DNA of 64,000 bases from Fructobacillus broussonetiae (GTDB taxonomy: Bacteria; Bacillota; Bacilli; Lactobacillales; Lactobacillaceae): contig NZ_JAAMFK010000004.1 in NCBI RefSeq assembly GCF_018437275.1, positions 62,001 to 126,000 of the forward strand. The letters run 5' to 3'. Below the pieces are notes generated by a model. That model worked only from the letters and a program-made list of their open reading frames with translations, made no database searches and was not told the DNA's origin. The position numbers were made by a program, and so were the translations under genes. Positions 46,171 through 63,639 of this stretch are shown here, in pieces; the first letter of the stretch is position 1; the number at the start of each line of letters is the position of its first letter.

Positions 46171-46189
46171 AAGTTTTATACATTACAAC

Positions 46190-46312
46190 ACTATCAAGAG
46201 CAGGGAAGTGATACAGCACGATGAACCTGCACCAACCGGCATTCGCACGGTGGTAATTCTGTAAGATAGACCAAGTCGCATGATTCGCTCAGGCTGGTCC
46301 TGGGCGTTTTTT
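46190..46312 (+). promoter_or_regulatory. S-box (SAM-I type) riboswitch upstream of metK
   Basis: The aptamer spans 46190-46270: CTATC and GATAG close P1, followed by AAGAG; GCAGG and CCTGC form P2 with GATGAA on its 3' side; then ACCAACC, a small P3 (CCGGC...GCACGG) and GGTGGTAATTCTG, which matches the GGTGCTAATTC element of S-boxes. The expression platform is a terminator, GCTCAGG and CCTGGGC with six T (46287-46312). The alternative pairing GACCA (46269-46273) with TGGTC (46295-46299) would disrupt it as antiterminator. SAM binding should switch off metK transcription. The aptamer is short for the class. Confidence 0.82.
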
Positions 46313-59399: not shown

Positions 59400-60737
59400 A
59401 TGGACTTTTCAGTACTCTACATTGGATCAGGTCAAGCAACGTGGAACGGTGCCGTTCCTTTGGCTAAGTCAGGCGTCAAAGTCGGTGTGATTGAAGAATC
59501 ACAGTACGGTGGTGTCTGCTCAAACAAGGGTTGCAACGCCAAGATTATCTTGGATAAGCCCCTCCAATTAATTGACCAAATCAAGGCCTTGCAAGGCCGT
59601 GGCTTGGACGGTGTTCCTGAAGTGAACTGGGAAGACCTCATGGCCCACAAGCACGAACTCATCGTGCCACAGGACCAACACGGTAAGGACCGCCTTGATA
59701 ACGTCGGCATCCAAACGATTAACGGCCACGCCGAATTCGTGGATGCCCACAAGGTTAGGGTTGGAAAAAAGACGTACACGGCCGATAAAATTGTTATCGC
59801 CACTGGTTTGCGTCCACACCGTTTGGACATTCCTGGTGCCGAAAACTCAACGGACTTCTTGTCCTTGCCACACATGCCGGAACACGTGACCATTTTGGGT
59901 GGTGGTTTTGTTGCCATCGAATTCGCCACGATTGCTTCAGCGGTTGGTGCCAAGGTTGACGTGATTACCCGTGGTAAGCAAATCTTGAAGCAATTTCCTA
60001 AAGAATACACGGCTTCCATCCAAGCGGACTTGAAGAAGGCCGGTGTACGCTTCATTCCTGACATGGAAGTGGAACGTGCAACAAAGGACGAAGAGGCCGG
60101 CACGATTACCTTGGAAGGCCCTAAGGGCTTTGAACTCACGACCGACTACGTCTTGGATGCAACGGGACGTGTGCCAAACCACGACCAATTGAACTTGGAA
60201 GCGGTTGGCGTGAAGGCTAACCACCGAGGAATCGAAGTAAACGAATACTTGCAGACGAACGTGGAAAACATCTACGCTGCAGGGGATGCCGTGGATAAGA
60301 CAATCCCTAAGTTGACGCCAACGGCCGCCTTCGAATCCCGCTACTTGGCTGCGAAGTTCATGGGGACAAACAACGGCCCAATTCAGTACCCAGCAATTTC
60401 AGAAATCGTCTTCACTTCACCACGAATCGCTCAGGTTGGTGTGAAGTTGGACGAAGCGAAGGCTAACCCTGACAAGTACGAAATCACCCAGGCTTCATAC
60501 GATGGTGACTGGTACCGTCAGGTTGAAAACGAACAGGGCGCAGAGCTCGCCTTGATCTTCGAAAAGGATAGCCAGCAATTGGTTGGAGCGGCTGAAAAGG
60601 CCAACGCCGCCGAAGAGACGATTAACACCATCGTGCCTTACGTGCAGATGCGCTTGACAAAGGAACAGCTAAACGACTTCGTTTACGTCTTCCCATCCAT
60701 CGCTTACACGTTGCAACGTCGTTTGCCACTGGTTTAA
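59400..60737 (+). CDS. Class I pyridine nucleotide-disulfide oxidoreductase, lacking the catalytic His
   Basis: Flavoprotein of 445 aa with the fold of glutathione/lipoamide reductases: FAD-binding start VLYIGSGQATWNGAVPLAKSG, redox pair GGVCSNKGCNAK (C-x4-C), NAD(P) motif VTILGGGFVAIEFATIASAVGAKV and second FAD motif YAAGDAVDKT. Glutathione reductases and lipoamide dehydrogenases end with an HPT-SE motif whose His activates the thiol; here that position reads VYVFPSIAYTL, without His or Glu. It may be a flavin NAD(P)H oxidase- or mercuric reductase-like relative, or use another acid. AAAGGAG lies 7-8 bases before ATG. Monocistronic. Substrate unknown. Confidence 0.88.
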   Translation: MDFSVLYIGSGQATWNGAVPLAKSGVKVGVIEESQYGGVCSNKGCNAKIILDKPLQLIDQIKALQGRGLDGVPEVNWEDLMAHKHELIVPQDQHGKDRLDNVGIQTINGHAEFVDAHKVRVGKKTYTADKIVIATGLRPHRLDIPGAENSTDFLSLPHMPEHVTILGGGFVAIEFATIASAVGAKVDVITRGKQILKQFPKEYTASIQADLKKAGVRFIPDMEVERATKDEEAGTITLEGPKGFELTTDYVLDATGRVPNHDQLNLEAVGVKANHRGIEVNEYLQTNVENIYAAGDAVDKTIPKLTPTAAFESRYLAAKFMGTNNGPIQYPAISEIVFTSPRIAQVGVKLDEAKANPDKYEITQASYDGDWYRQVENEQGAELALIFEKDSQQLVGAAEKANAAEETINTIVPYVQMRLTKEQLNDFVYVFPSIAYTLQRRLPLV

Positions 60738-60842: not shown

Positions 60843-61331
60843 ATGGAATTATCAGGTGAAACAATCGTTGACTTAGTTGAAAATCAGTCATACGAAGATA
60901 AAGTGGTTGCTAATCCAGCCGGTAAAGAAATCGATTTGGATTCTCTCTTTGCAGCCTTTACAGACTTAGCCAAACAAGAAACACCAGCCCGTGCAGCCCT
61001 GGACGTTGACGGCGGTATCGAGCAGGGTGGCACGACGCTTTCGATGGAAGCAAACGTTATCAACTTGCCACTCCGCTACAAGAACCAGGAAAAGAAGTTG
61101 GTCTACGTCGATCAAGCCTATGAGCTATCCGTCTACATGATTGTGGACAACGCCCACGTCTCGAAGTCCGCTTTGAAGATTGAAAAGTTATCGTCATTGT
61201 CTGCTTTCTTGGACGACCCAGACTCCGTTTTGGACAAGGGGGCCAAATGGTTCGCAACGCAGTTGGACGCCATCCGAGAAAACCAGGCGGCGGCTGTTTC
61301 TGAAGAAGAGAAGCAGGAAGAAGAAAATTAA
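60843..61331 (+). CDS. Hypothetical acidic protein, 162 aa
   Basis: Unrecognised, soluble, acidic protein. Residues 1-50 are helical and polar, 60-105 beta-rich (GGTTLSMEANVINLPLRY, KKLVYVDQAYELSVYMIVDN), 105-150 helical, and it ends in a Glu-rich tail (SEEEKQEEEN). No signal peptide or membrane segment. AAAGGAGA is 7 bases before the ATG. Own terminator; no operon partner. Could be a lineage-specific protein. No function proposed. Confidence 0.75.
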   Translation: MELSGETIVDLVENQSYEDKVVANPAGKEIDLDSLFAAFTDLAKQETPARAALDVDGGIEQGGTTLSMEANVINLPLRYKNQEKKLVYVDQAYELSVYMIVDNAHVSKSALKIEKLSSLSAFLDDPDSVLDKGAKWFATQLDAIRENQAAAVSEEEKQEEEN

Positions 61332-61378: not shown

Positions 61379-61633
61379 TCATTCTTCTTTAAGATGGGCA
61401 GACAAGTGGTAGGCCTTTCCGTCCTTTTCCACTGACGCCTTCAGCACGCCCGGCGACGACACGTGCGAGTAGGAGGACAGCTCGCCCAAGTCATAGGCCT
61501 CAATCACCGCCTGCACCACGTCCTTCTTCGAGCCAAAGCCCGTTTCCGGAATTGCCAGGTCATCCCAATCCCAGGATTCCGCCGGCCCGTAACTCTTCAA
61601 TTCTTTTGTCTTAATTTTCGTGATTAATAGCAT
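61379..61633 (-). CDS. Small hypothetical protein, 84 aa
   Basis: Unrecognised soluble protein with a basic first helix (LLITKIKTKELKSYG), an aromatic acidic segment (ESWDWDDLAIPETGFG), and a C-terminal beta-hairpin-like VLKASVEKDGKAYHLSAHL. ATG 61633 is chosen as it gives a soluble protein; AAGGA is only 2-3 bases away, so the start is uncertain, and a longer frame to 61696 would add a hydrophobic N-terminus. Its shared promoter region is the interval to the next plus-strand gene. Confidence 0.6.
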   Translation of the reverse strand: MLLITKIKTKELKSYGPAESWDWDDLAIPETGFGSKKDVVQAVIEAYDLGELSSYSHVSSPGVLKASVEKDGKAYHLSAHLKEE

Positions 61634-61773
61634 ATCCTTAGTATAAGGCCTGCCTGCAAGGGCGTAAAGCAAAAGAAAACATGCACTTATTTTCACATAT
61701 ACTTTAGAATAACGATATGATATTCTAATCTCAACAACCGTAGAGAAGTGTTCGAACTAAGAAAGGGACAATC

Positions 61774-62019
61774 ATGAAGACGGGAACTTTTGTTACATTT
61801 TGCTTTGGCTACGCTTTCGTTGTGTTTTACGTATACGAAGAATTCTTTTCACGTTACATCAACGGCTTCTGGATCAATTACCTTGTCCAGACCGCCATTC
61901 TCGTTCTTGGTCTGATCATCATCTTCATCTTCAAAGTCGTCATGGACTACAAATCCGGTGTCTTGGATGAGTCCGACAAGCTCGACCAACTCGAAACAAT
62001 CGAAAAACTTGAAGACTAA
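61774..62019 (+). CDS. Small two-helix membrane protein, 81 aa
   Basis: Unrecognised. Helix 1 (residues 6-22, FVTFCFGYAFVVFYVYE) and helix 2 (38-56, LVQTAILVLGLIIIFIFKVV), then an acidic cytoplasmic tail (DYKSGVLDESDKLDQLETIEKLED) predicted to be helical. GAAAGGGA is 8 bases before the ATG. It is immediately upstream of a structured RNA gene but has no visible terminator of its own; the RNA has a separate promoter. Function unknown. Confidence 0.75.
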   Translation: MKTGTFVTFCFGYAFVVFYVYEEFFSRYINGFWINYLVQTAILVLGLIIIFIFKVVMDYKSGVLDESDKLDQLETIEKLED

Positions 62020-62027
62020 GTGAGCAC

Positions 62028-62056
62028 TTGCTATTTTAGTCAAAAGCTGACATAAT
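62028..62056 (+). promoter_or_regulatory. Promoter of the structured RNA gene
   Basis: TTGCTA, 17 bases, CATAAT with TG one base upstream. Start predicted near 62062, at the edge of the RNA's terminal helix. Confidence 0.7.
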
Positions 62057-62059
62057 AAA

Positions 62060-62297
62060 GGTATGCGATGAGTCGAACGCGTCTTTTAGGACGCTTATGC
62101 GGCCTGCTCGGATTAAATTCCAAGCCACGGATTTGGTGCAGGTGTTATGACTGTTGTGGAACTTTCATATCTCACCATGACTACTAGCTTTTGCTAGGGT
62201 GACGCTGACTTGTTTCAATCGTGACTGATTGAAACCGCCCGTCGAAGCGAATTCGGCATGCCAAACTAAGAGCTAACTACGGTTAGCTCTTTTTTAT
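62060..62297 (+). ncRNA. Free-standing structured RNA, about 235 nt, family not identified
   Basis: The 342-base gap between a small membrane-protein gene and xseA holds a unit with promoter, folded body and intrinsic terminator. GGTATGC (62060-62066) pairs with GCATGCC (62256-62262), so the body is closed by its own ends. Within are GCGTC-TTTTAG-GACGC (from 62080), a helix GCGG (62099-62102) with CCGC (62235-62238), CCTGC (62103-62107) with GCAGG (62138-62142), CACC/GGTG plus CTAGC-TTTT-GCTAG (62174-62201), and GTTTCAATC-GTGACT-GATTGAAAC (from 62212). No open frame with a ribosome site. It does not match tmRNA, RNase P RNA or SRP RNA; 6S RNA is the main known alternative. Confidence 0.65.
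62268..62296 (+). terminator. Terminator of the structured RNA
   Basis: AAGAGCTAAC, loop TACG, GTTAGCTCTT, T-run. Separates the RNA from xseA, which has its own TATAAT at 62323-62328. Confidence 0.9.
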
Positions 62298-62361
62298 TGC
62301 CAATTTTTACGAGGGCTTTTGTTATAATAAAGAAAGCAGTTTTAACTTTTGAGGAGTCTCC

Positions 62362-63639
62362 ATGGTCGAACAGGCACAGTATTTAAGTGTTGGTGCACTA
62401 ACTAAATATCTCAAGGCAAAGTTTGATAACGACCCCCACCTGGGCAAGGTCTATCTGACGGGTGAAATTTCCAACCTTGGAAACCGTCGCTCCCGCCACC
62501 TCTACTTCTCCATCAAGGATCCAAAGGAGAAGGCCGTCATCCGTGCCGCCATGTTCTCCTATGCTTCCCGCTTGAAGTTCGAGCCAGAAGAGGGAATGAA
62601 GGTCCAGGCCATCGGACGTGTTCAGGTCTACGAACCGGCCGGTTCCTATTCGATCATCTTAGAGCAGATGACGCCCGCCGGTGTCGGTGACCTCTTCATG
62701 GCCTTACAGCAGTTGAAAGAGAAGCTGTCCAAAGAAGGGCTCTTCTCTCAACCTAAGAAGGCCTTGAAGCCTTTGCCTAAGAAGATTGCCGTTATCACGT
62801 CACCAACCGGTGCCGTCGTCGAAGACGTGGCCAAGACCGTGGAACGCCGCTTGCCCCAAGCACAGGTCGTGCTTTTGCCTGCCGTTGTTCAGGGAGATGG
62901 TGCGGTGCCATCGCTCTTAAAACAGTTGGACCGTGTCGATGACATGGGCTTTGACGCCGTCATCATCGGTCGTGGTGGTGGTTCCATCGAAGACCTCTGG
63001 GCCTTTAACGACGAAAGTCTGGTCCGCAGGGTTGCCGCGATGAACACGCCGGTCATTGCCTCCGTTGGGCACGAAACCGACAACACACTGGTTGATTTGG
63101 TCGCGGATCAACGAGCCGCCACGCCAACGGCCGCAGCTGAATTAGCCACGCCGGTCTCCAACCAAAACCTGGTCGACCGCGTGATGGAGTTATCCTCCCG
63201 CTTGACCCTAGCTGGCCAACAGCTTGTGGCCAACAAGAAACAGGCTTTGAACTACGTGGTCGAGCGACCAATCATGAAACAGCCCGACCGCTTGTATGCC
63301 ACCTACCAACAGGAAGTTGACTCCCTTGAGAAGCGCCTCTACCAAGCCTTCTCCCGTCGAGTCGACAACCGTCGCTACGAGGAAAAGGCCCTGGTTGAAC
63401 GGCTGGTTGCCCAGAAGACTCAACTCCTTCGGCCTTACAAGGAAAAGGTTTCTTTGGCCGCTGCCAAGCTGGACCTGGTATCGCCACTTAAGATTTTATC
63501 TTCCGGTTACACCTTCGTGAAGGGGCCGGATGGCGAAATCGTGAAGAGCAAGAAGGATTTGAAAAAAGACGACGAGGTGCGCCTGACCTTTGCAGACGGG
63601 GACTTAAGCGCCAAGATTTTAGGAGAGCAAAATGACTGA
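62362..63639 (+). CDS. xseA: Exodeoxyribonuclease VII large subunit
   Basis: Catalytic subunit of the ssDNA exonuclease ExoVII (425 aa). N-terminal OB-fold: [32 protein letters not shown]; catalytic core with [36 protein letters not shown] and [28 protein letters not shown]; long helical region 270-370 and a C-terminal strand ([11 protein letters not shown]). GAGGAG lies 8 bases before ATG. Overlaps xseB by 8 bases. folD, usually just upstream, is missing. Confidence 0.97.

Follow-up and report, generated by a model that had tools for sequence, protein, structure and literature searches.

MarS of S. pyogenes is described as an independently transcribed, stable sRNA, the deletion of which does not significantly slow growth and alters virulence gene expression (PMC5613026). 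In gel shifts it binds the 5' UTR of mga, and this binding is abolished by a CC-to-GG change at nucleotides 88-89 (PMC5613026). The asd RNA of S. agalactiae corresponds to Srn046, which was seen at about 200 nt on Northern blots and is reported to be down-regulated in late stationary phase and in acid (PMC4448216), and that of S. pneumoniae D39 is annotated as srf-17 (PMC6212727). Weinberg et al. assign asd to Lactobacillales in a listing whose entry has three columns, two of them holding question marks (PMC2864571). These published facts on the relatives leave the invariant 5' end described below unexplained.

The locus compared here with these RNAs lies in a 64,000-nt stretch of Fructobacillus broussonetiae DNA (the window), in which an earlier note had described a free-standing, multi-helix RNA gene that it could not place in a known family. 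At the Rfam gathering thresholds nothing was found at the RNA, and the whole window gave one tRNA and one SAM riboswitch match alone, the riboswitch at 46188-46272 (+) with 44.9 bits against a cut-off of 44.4. A permissive covariance-model search of 721 nt, of the kind that the note had suggested, matched Ref68/Lacto-3 (RF02840) with 36.8 bits (E 2.7e-6), below the gathering cut-off of 44. The alignment was full-length, bringing model positions 1-124 onto window positions 62064-62164 from the seed through hairpin P3. The asd/MarS model (RF01732) stayed below its gathering cut-off of 84 (20.1 bits, E 0.17). The SRP RNA and tmRNA models gave no match in 61700-62420 up to E 10 and there was no 6S (RF00013) match at the locus, in agreement with the note's view that this is not 6S RNA. 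The RNA can therefore be placed, contrary to the note, as a sub-threshold long relative of Ref68/Lacto-3 that aligns with the full model. A divergent 6S candidate was seen elsewhere in the same genome (L128, G000:C10:7379-7561; its 42.2 bits fall just short of the 46.4 required), and non-canonical 6S RNA has been reported in this group of bacteria, according to the part of the source cited (PMC8414754).

A Weissella-group relative (L045, genome G029) scored 56.3 bits, above the Ref68 cut-off of 44, and shows every part of the long architecture, which makes it a link between the window RNA and the Ref68 family. Among 148 Lactobacillales genomes, Ref68 matched 72, the window's own included, and asd matched 32, with one match per genome. 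The union covered 89 of the 148 genomes and seven of the nine Lactobacillales families sampled; the remaining 59 genomes had neither a Ref68 nor an asd match. The Lactococcus lactis genome included as a control scored above the cut-off with asd and below it with Ref68. Because the two models hit the same locus in all 15 genomes matched by both, Ref68 and asd/MarS are taken as one superfamily. Scanning 84,980 species with a pattern of the seed plus TTGTGGAA identified 57 stretches, all in Lactobacillales, of which 51 were long forms from Fructobacillus, Convivina, Leuconostoc, Weissella, Oenococcus and related species. The other six comprised five short forms (Pediococcus, Enterococcus) and one broken-off Weissella confusa record (L105), in which the RNA breaks off within the pseudoknot and continues into other sequence. 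Since that pattern served to pick these records (L071-L127), the conservation of either motif cannot be argued from them. Judged by model matches and alignments, the locus is a Fructobacillus member, in a previously unrecognised long form, of a single-copy Lactobacillales superfamily, and the predicted 3' pseudoknot domain is an addition specific to the former Leuconostocaceae.

The features of the locus are collected in Table 1. The promoter TTGCTA-17-CATAAT read by the earlier note is present and carries the TG of an extended -10, and the promoter scan gave five promoter-like sites in 61500-63000 against 1.4 +/- 1.2 in shuffled sequences. The terminator also held up: its stem is kept in relatives with compensating changes (alignment columns 222-243), while the terminator scan by itself showed no excess, with one found against 1.7 +/- 1.2 in shuffles. 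Terminator hairpins of the GCTAAC..GTTAGC type, 83-88% identical to that of the RNA, were seen at other loci in relatives (L017-L020). The fold energy of 62060-62297 was -86.7 kcal/mol (z -5.09), and none of 200 shuffles was equally stable. As the note had it, the region is without a credible ORF, the ORF search returning no frame of at least 40 aa on the RNA at 62060-62297. Two small coding possibilities at the 5' end were rejected. A leaderless minigene AUG-CGA-UGA loses its UGA in nine of 89 genomes, which read CGACG, and its AUG in five of 89, where position 1 is C, T or G. An open frame of 39 codons beginning at the second AUG, followed by eye, is broken by length changes among relatives. 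With its covarying fold, own promoter and own terminator, the stretch 62060-62297 (+) is almost certainly a real stand-alone RNA gene homologous to the Ref68/asd RNAs, and the note's reading of a free-standing, multi-helix gene is supported.

In 100 of 118 loci, a spacing of 6 or 7 nt separates the end of the -10 from the first A of the seed. The +1 is accordingly predicted at about A62063, and 62063 to about 62296 is the better span for the RNA. The note had also proposed paired ends, GGTATGC/GCATGCC. The letters are present, but the GGT is probably untranscribed because the -10 spacing sets the +1 at about A62063, and in the remaining AUGC/GCAU pairing no pair changed on both sides and one of the four pairs fails in eight of 22 sequences. 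This pairing also competes with pseudoknot stem S2. Pairing between the 5' and 3' ends of the RNA was rejected, there being no covariation for it among the 22 sequences.

Table 1. Features of the RNA locus and its surroundings (window coordinates)
Feature	Coordinates	Strand	Basis
orf162, conserved neighbour without family match	60843-61331	+	family search, close loci
orf105m, conserved neighbour without family match	61379-61696	-	close loci
Promoter TTGCTA-17-CATAAT, extended -10 (TG)	62028-62056	+	promoter scan
RNA gene (Ref68/asd superfamily, long form)	62063-62296	+	predicted +1 to end of T run
5' seed AUGCGAUGAGUCGA, the block that is invariant in A1; complement of 23S 2512-2525	62063-62076	+	alignment, complementarity
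Hairpin P1, in the window sequence with 6 pairs and a loop of 4 nt	62079-62094	+	fold and alignment; less reliably aligned between genera
Core domain, with H1 (62099-62101 with 62203-62205) as its closing helix	62099-62205	+	covariation
Hairpin P2, inside core	62102-62143	+	covariation
Hairpin P3, GUGG loop, inside core	62147-62168	+	covariation
Hairpin P4, inside core	62172-62202	+	covariation
Hairpin P5 of 3' extension	62213-62234	+	covariation
H-type pseudoknot: S1 (62236-62238 with 62247-62249), S2 (62241-62246 with 62252-62257)	62236-62257	+	covariation, direct search
3' linear element UGCCAAACU; complement of 23S 2495-2503	62259-62267	+	complementarity
Intrinsic terminator (stem 62268-62291)	62268-62296	+	scan and alignment of relatives
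Separate extended -10-like sequence TGTTATAAT before xseA	62320-62328	+	read from sequence, absent from promoter-scan list
xseA, downstream neighbour	62362-63639	+	gene comparison

For the secondary structure, a DNA search of 60 genomes matched 18, of which 16 matched at the RNA, the own genome included, and two at the terminator only. The 16 sequences (L001-L016) make up alignment A1, for which RNAalifold predicted 61 pairs; in 34 of them, one or more of the sequences have both partners changed. Alignment A2 holds 22 sequences from Fructobacillus, Convivina, Leuconostoc and near relatives. Its 49 pairs were formed in 96.3% of cells and 31 of them changed on both sides; none of 500 shuffles matched the structure, and versions of it slid along the alignment were 31-41% paired. 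Hairpin P5 showed changes on both sides at six of its seven pairs, with 86.7% of cells paired. The earlier note's count of at least four internal hairpins is borne out by covariation in P2, P3, P4, P5 and the terminator. A possible AGUCG/UGACU contact of the seed with P4 was seen by eye and lies outside the counted pairs.

The 3' pseudoknot was examined in alignment A4 (10 Weissella sequences), in which all 12 of its pairs were formed in all cells and four changed on both sides. Shuffling reached this count of four changed pairs in 70 of 500 cases and the covariation score in none of 500. For a direct search, 70 candidate long forms were reduced by dropping five short forms (L073, L113, L099, L100, L126), four records that were cut off, broken off or species repeats (L074, L105, L118, L078) and L081, which is long-form-like without a match to the 3' motif. 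Removal of 10 exact duplicates left 50 long forms, and removal of nine more that were over 97% alike left 41. An H-type pseudoknot was present in all 41 of these distinct long forms; any such knot arose in 162 of 820 shuffles, and the observed median score was reached in five of 820. In L112 the best-scoring knot is elsewhere than in the other 40 long forms, and it is the weakest. A covariation comparison with Leuconostoc and Weissella relatives, of the kind that the earlier note had outlined, thus found covarying helices but no covariation at the paired ends, and the predicted core fold and 3' pseudoknot are established by these alignments.

Complementarity of the 5' end to 23S rRNA was then considered. 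No 23S gene was found by a 23S search in the window's own draft genome, whereas four Fructobacillus genomes have one, and for this reason the 23S rRNA of the genus was used, numbered as in the Fructobacillus sequence L145. The seed can form 14 consecutive pairs, one of them G.U, with UCGGCUCAUCGCAU at 2512-2525, which we take to lie beside the peptidyl-transferase centre. This is the top run of complementarity between the RNA and 23S, and its bounds are those of the invariant block in A1. Seed pattern searches returned several copies of ATGCGATGAGCCGA in many genomes, and in G045 and G052, where coordinates were compared, the copies are within 23S genes, antisense. In tests that, like those on seed variation and on a second site below, were chosen after the match had been noticed, random 14-mers of the window matched 23S with at most one G.U in eight of 40000 draws and the shuffled seed in none of 20000. 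Taken as a whole, the RNA is within chance against whole 23S, its best run being reached by 40 of 1000 shuffles, and ordinary tiles of the window score above it. RNAduplex with the whole RNA against 23S was set aside as uninformative because it ignores intramolecular folding. In predicted ensembles the seed is only half unpaired (0.50 against 0.36 for the body), although it is the more open of the two in 97 of 110 RNAs. The 5'-terminal 14 nt probably act as a base-pairing element. That 23S rRNA is the physiological partner of this element has, in our judgement, roughly even prospects.

Variation in the seed was tabulated for 89 genomes, comprising the covariance-model matches and the window only. 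Changes occur at positions 1, 7, 9, 11, 12 and 14 only, that is, at six of the eight positions with U or G as a possible 23S partner, whereas the six facing A or C never vary (Fisher p 0.009; with A taken as the partner of position 7, p is 0.051). Beside the peptidyl-transferase centre, two versions of 23S were seen among Lactobacillales, CTCATCGC and CTCGTCGC (L145-L175). The partner of seed position 7 is A or G by lineage, as read at the site in 31 of 32 loci. This position is U in all 27 A-type and in 24 of 31 G-type genomes, and C in nine of the 89, namely seven of the 31 G-type genomes and two untyped ones. The 23S type is lacking for 31 of the 89 genomes, and the 27 A-type assignments come from 23S model matches in 12 cases and from extra ATGCGATGAGCCGA copies among the matches listed in 15. 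The nine C genomes belong to three genera of one family, so that the C at position 7 may represent one event. Elsewhere, a G at position 11 makes an internal G-G mismatch in seven of 89 genomes, and the terminal seed pair is lost in four of 89 (C or T at position 1). The table gives modest support to the view that seed changes fall mostly where a wobble can keep the 23S pairing.

A second site of complementarity was suggested by the long forms. When the seed was removed from the 41 long forms, the stretch beside the seed site was the best 60-nt window of 23S for runs of at least 6 and the second best for runs of at least 7. The 54 short forms, treated likewise, showed no preference, 47% of windows doing as well. 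With A2 alone the stretch ranks among the best 0.5% of windows, the very best starting at 2452 and overlapping it, and with alignment A3 alone it is the single best 23S window. Column-permuted alignments reached its score in three of 400 cases (A2) and five of 400 (A3); the two results are not independent because homologous motifs are common to both alignments. Each of 15 long forms inspected has UGUGGA (23S 2479-2484) and GCCAA within UGCCAAAC (23S 2496-2503). A third candidate, CCCGUCGA to 23S 2485-2492, was rejected as a general element, since Fructobacillus has it and other genera either lack it or have a shorter version. On 23S, the sites of UGUGGA and UGCCAAAC do not run colinearly with that of the seed; therefore at most the seed and UGCCAAAC could form a simple bracket.

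On the basis of these features, we propose that the RNA acts in trans and would base-pair through its 5'-terminal 14 nt. The likeliest partner would be 23S rRNA, probably as a precursor or unfolded, a state we favour because the mature 50S subunit buries this part of 23S beside the peptidyl-transferase centre. In the long form, UGCCAAACU would pair just upstream on 23S, so that the two arms would bracket the 8-nt CCUCGAUG at 2504-2511 (L145), which we take to contain the base called A2503 in E. coli numbering. The RNA may delay, chaperone or mark the folding of this part of domain V; alternatively, it may be titrated by nascent rRNA. We are evenly divided on the explanation as a whole, in which a single-copy, independently transcribed RNA would act in trans with 23S rRNA or its precursor as the likely partner. 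A guide- or chaperone-like pairing of the seed with 2512-2525 and of UGCCAAACU with 2495-2503, timing the folding, modification or quality control of the catalytic centre, is a more tentative proposal, which we put forward with some doubt.

The main rival is an ordinary trans-acting regulator of mRNAs like MarS, with lineage-specific targets and a coincidental 23S match. We consider this rather unlikely, although it can draw on the binding of MarS to mga and its loss on changing nucleotides 88-89, on the shift in virulence gene expression upon marS deletion (PMC5613026 for both, in the part cited) and on the whole-RNA complementarity to 23S being no better than chance. The position of the mga site can be read in two ways: mga, the sole tested target of a relative, uses nucleotides 88-89 and not the 5' end, which suits this reading, but since the site is outside the invariant 5' block the pairing fails to explain that block. 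In addition, the IntaRNA fdr values given for the MarS targets are at least 0.46 (PMC5613026). Across 13 Fructobacillus genomes there are 16 copies of CGACTCATCGC, the exact 11-nt complement of the seed. Thirteen of these are the RNA gene itself, and the remaining three sites, in two genomes, have unrelated flanks, so that this long perfect match gives no recurring target. A conserved exact 11-nt seed target was accordingly rejected, none recurring in the 13 genomes besides the RNA gene when perfect matches only are counted.

An RNA with a structural role in a ribonucleoprotein, in which the invariant 5' block and the loops bind protein without any pairing in trans, would fit the strong conservation of the fold and of several linear motifs, the single copy per genome and the extra pseudoknot domain in one lineage. 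The clustering of seed changes where the 23S wobble survives is unexpected for a protein site alone, although this evidence is modest. We regard the structural role as improbable. We give almost no credence to a cis-acting leader or attenuator of xseA. Such a role is favoured by xseA lying downstream in 14 of the 16 close loci, but the RNA ends in its own terminator, the separate TGTTATAAT stands before xseA, and other genera carry different downstream genes. A promoter and a terminator of its own make a trans-acting RNA, as opposed to a leader, the simplest reading. Besides xseA, the neighbours recurring in the close loci are orf105m (15 of 16) and orf162, distant relatives of which also adjoin the Ref68 RNA in L021 and L023. 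Across genera the neighbours include xseA, comEA-like, the hprK region, udk, hemH, asd and others (all but xseA read by eye), and because they differ in this way the genomic position gives no functional hint. An 81-aa ORF at 61774-62019 (+), which ends 43 nt before the RNA, has no Pfam or NCBIfam match, and tblastn found only the window's own locus among the loci compared. Further upstream, 59400-60737 (+) encodes a FAD-dependent disulfide oxidoreductase, for which none of the 25 NCBIfam models listed reaches its curated cut-off.

Our preferred reading of a trans-acting RNA paired with 23S rRNA would, if true, be the first known sign of a bacterial trans RNA acting on the catalytic core of the ribosome, and MarS-type RNAs would gain a conserved function apart from their lineage-specific mRNA targets. 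We know of no bacterial example of a snoRNA-like guide or chaperone that pairs with rRNA, and no proposal of such sRNA-23S pairing was found in titles and abstract openings of a literature from which subscription journals are mostly outside. With the placement described here, two orphan Rfam families, Ref68/Lacto-3 and asd/MarS, merge into one single-copy RNA present in seven of nine families. The window RNA has in common with Ref68/Lacto-3 the 5' AUGCGAUGAGUCGA, P1 and two further hairpins, one containing CGGAUU and the other with the GUGG loop. It differs in having about 60 nt more as a 3' domain, made up of P5, the pseudoknot and UGCCAAACUA, which is absent in the short forms inspected. The asd/MarS RNAs have the same 5' block and the same locus as Ref68; however, they are shorter, and their loop hairpin has UGUGUGAA where the window RNA has UGUGGAA. 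Finally, the proposed two antisense arms flanking a stretch of the large-subunit rRNA core would resemble those of archaeal and eukaryotic guide or chaperone snoRNAs, a likeness limited to the proposed mode of action.
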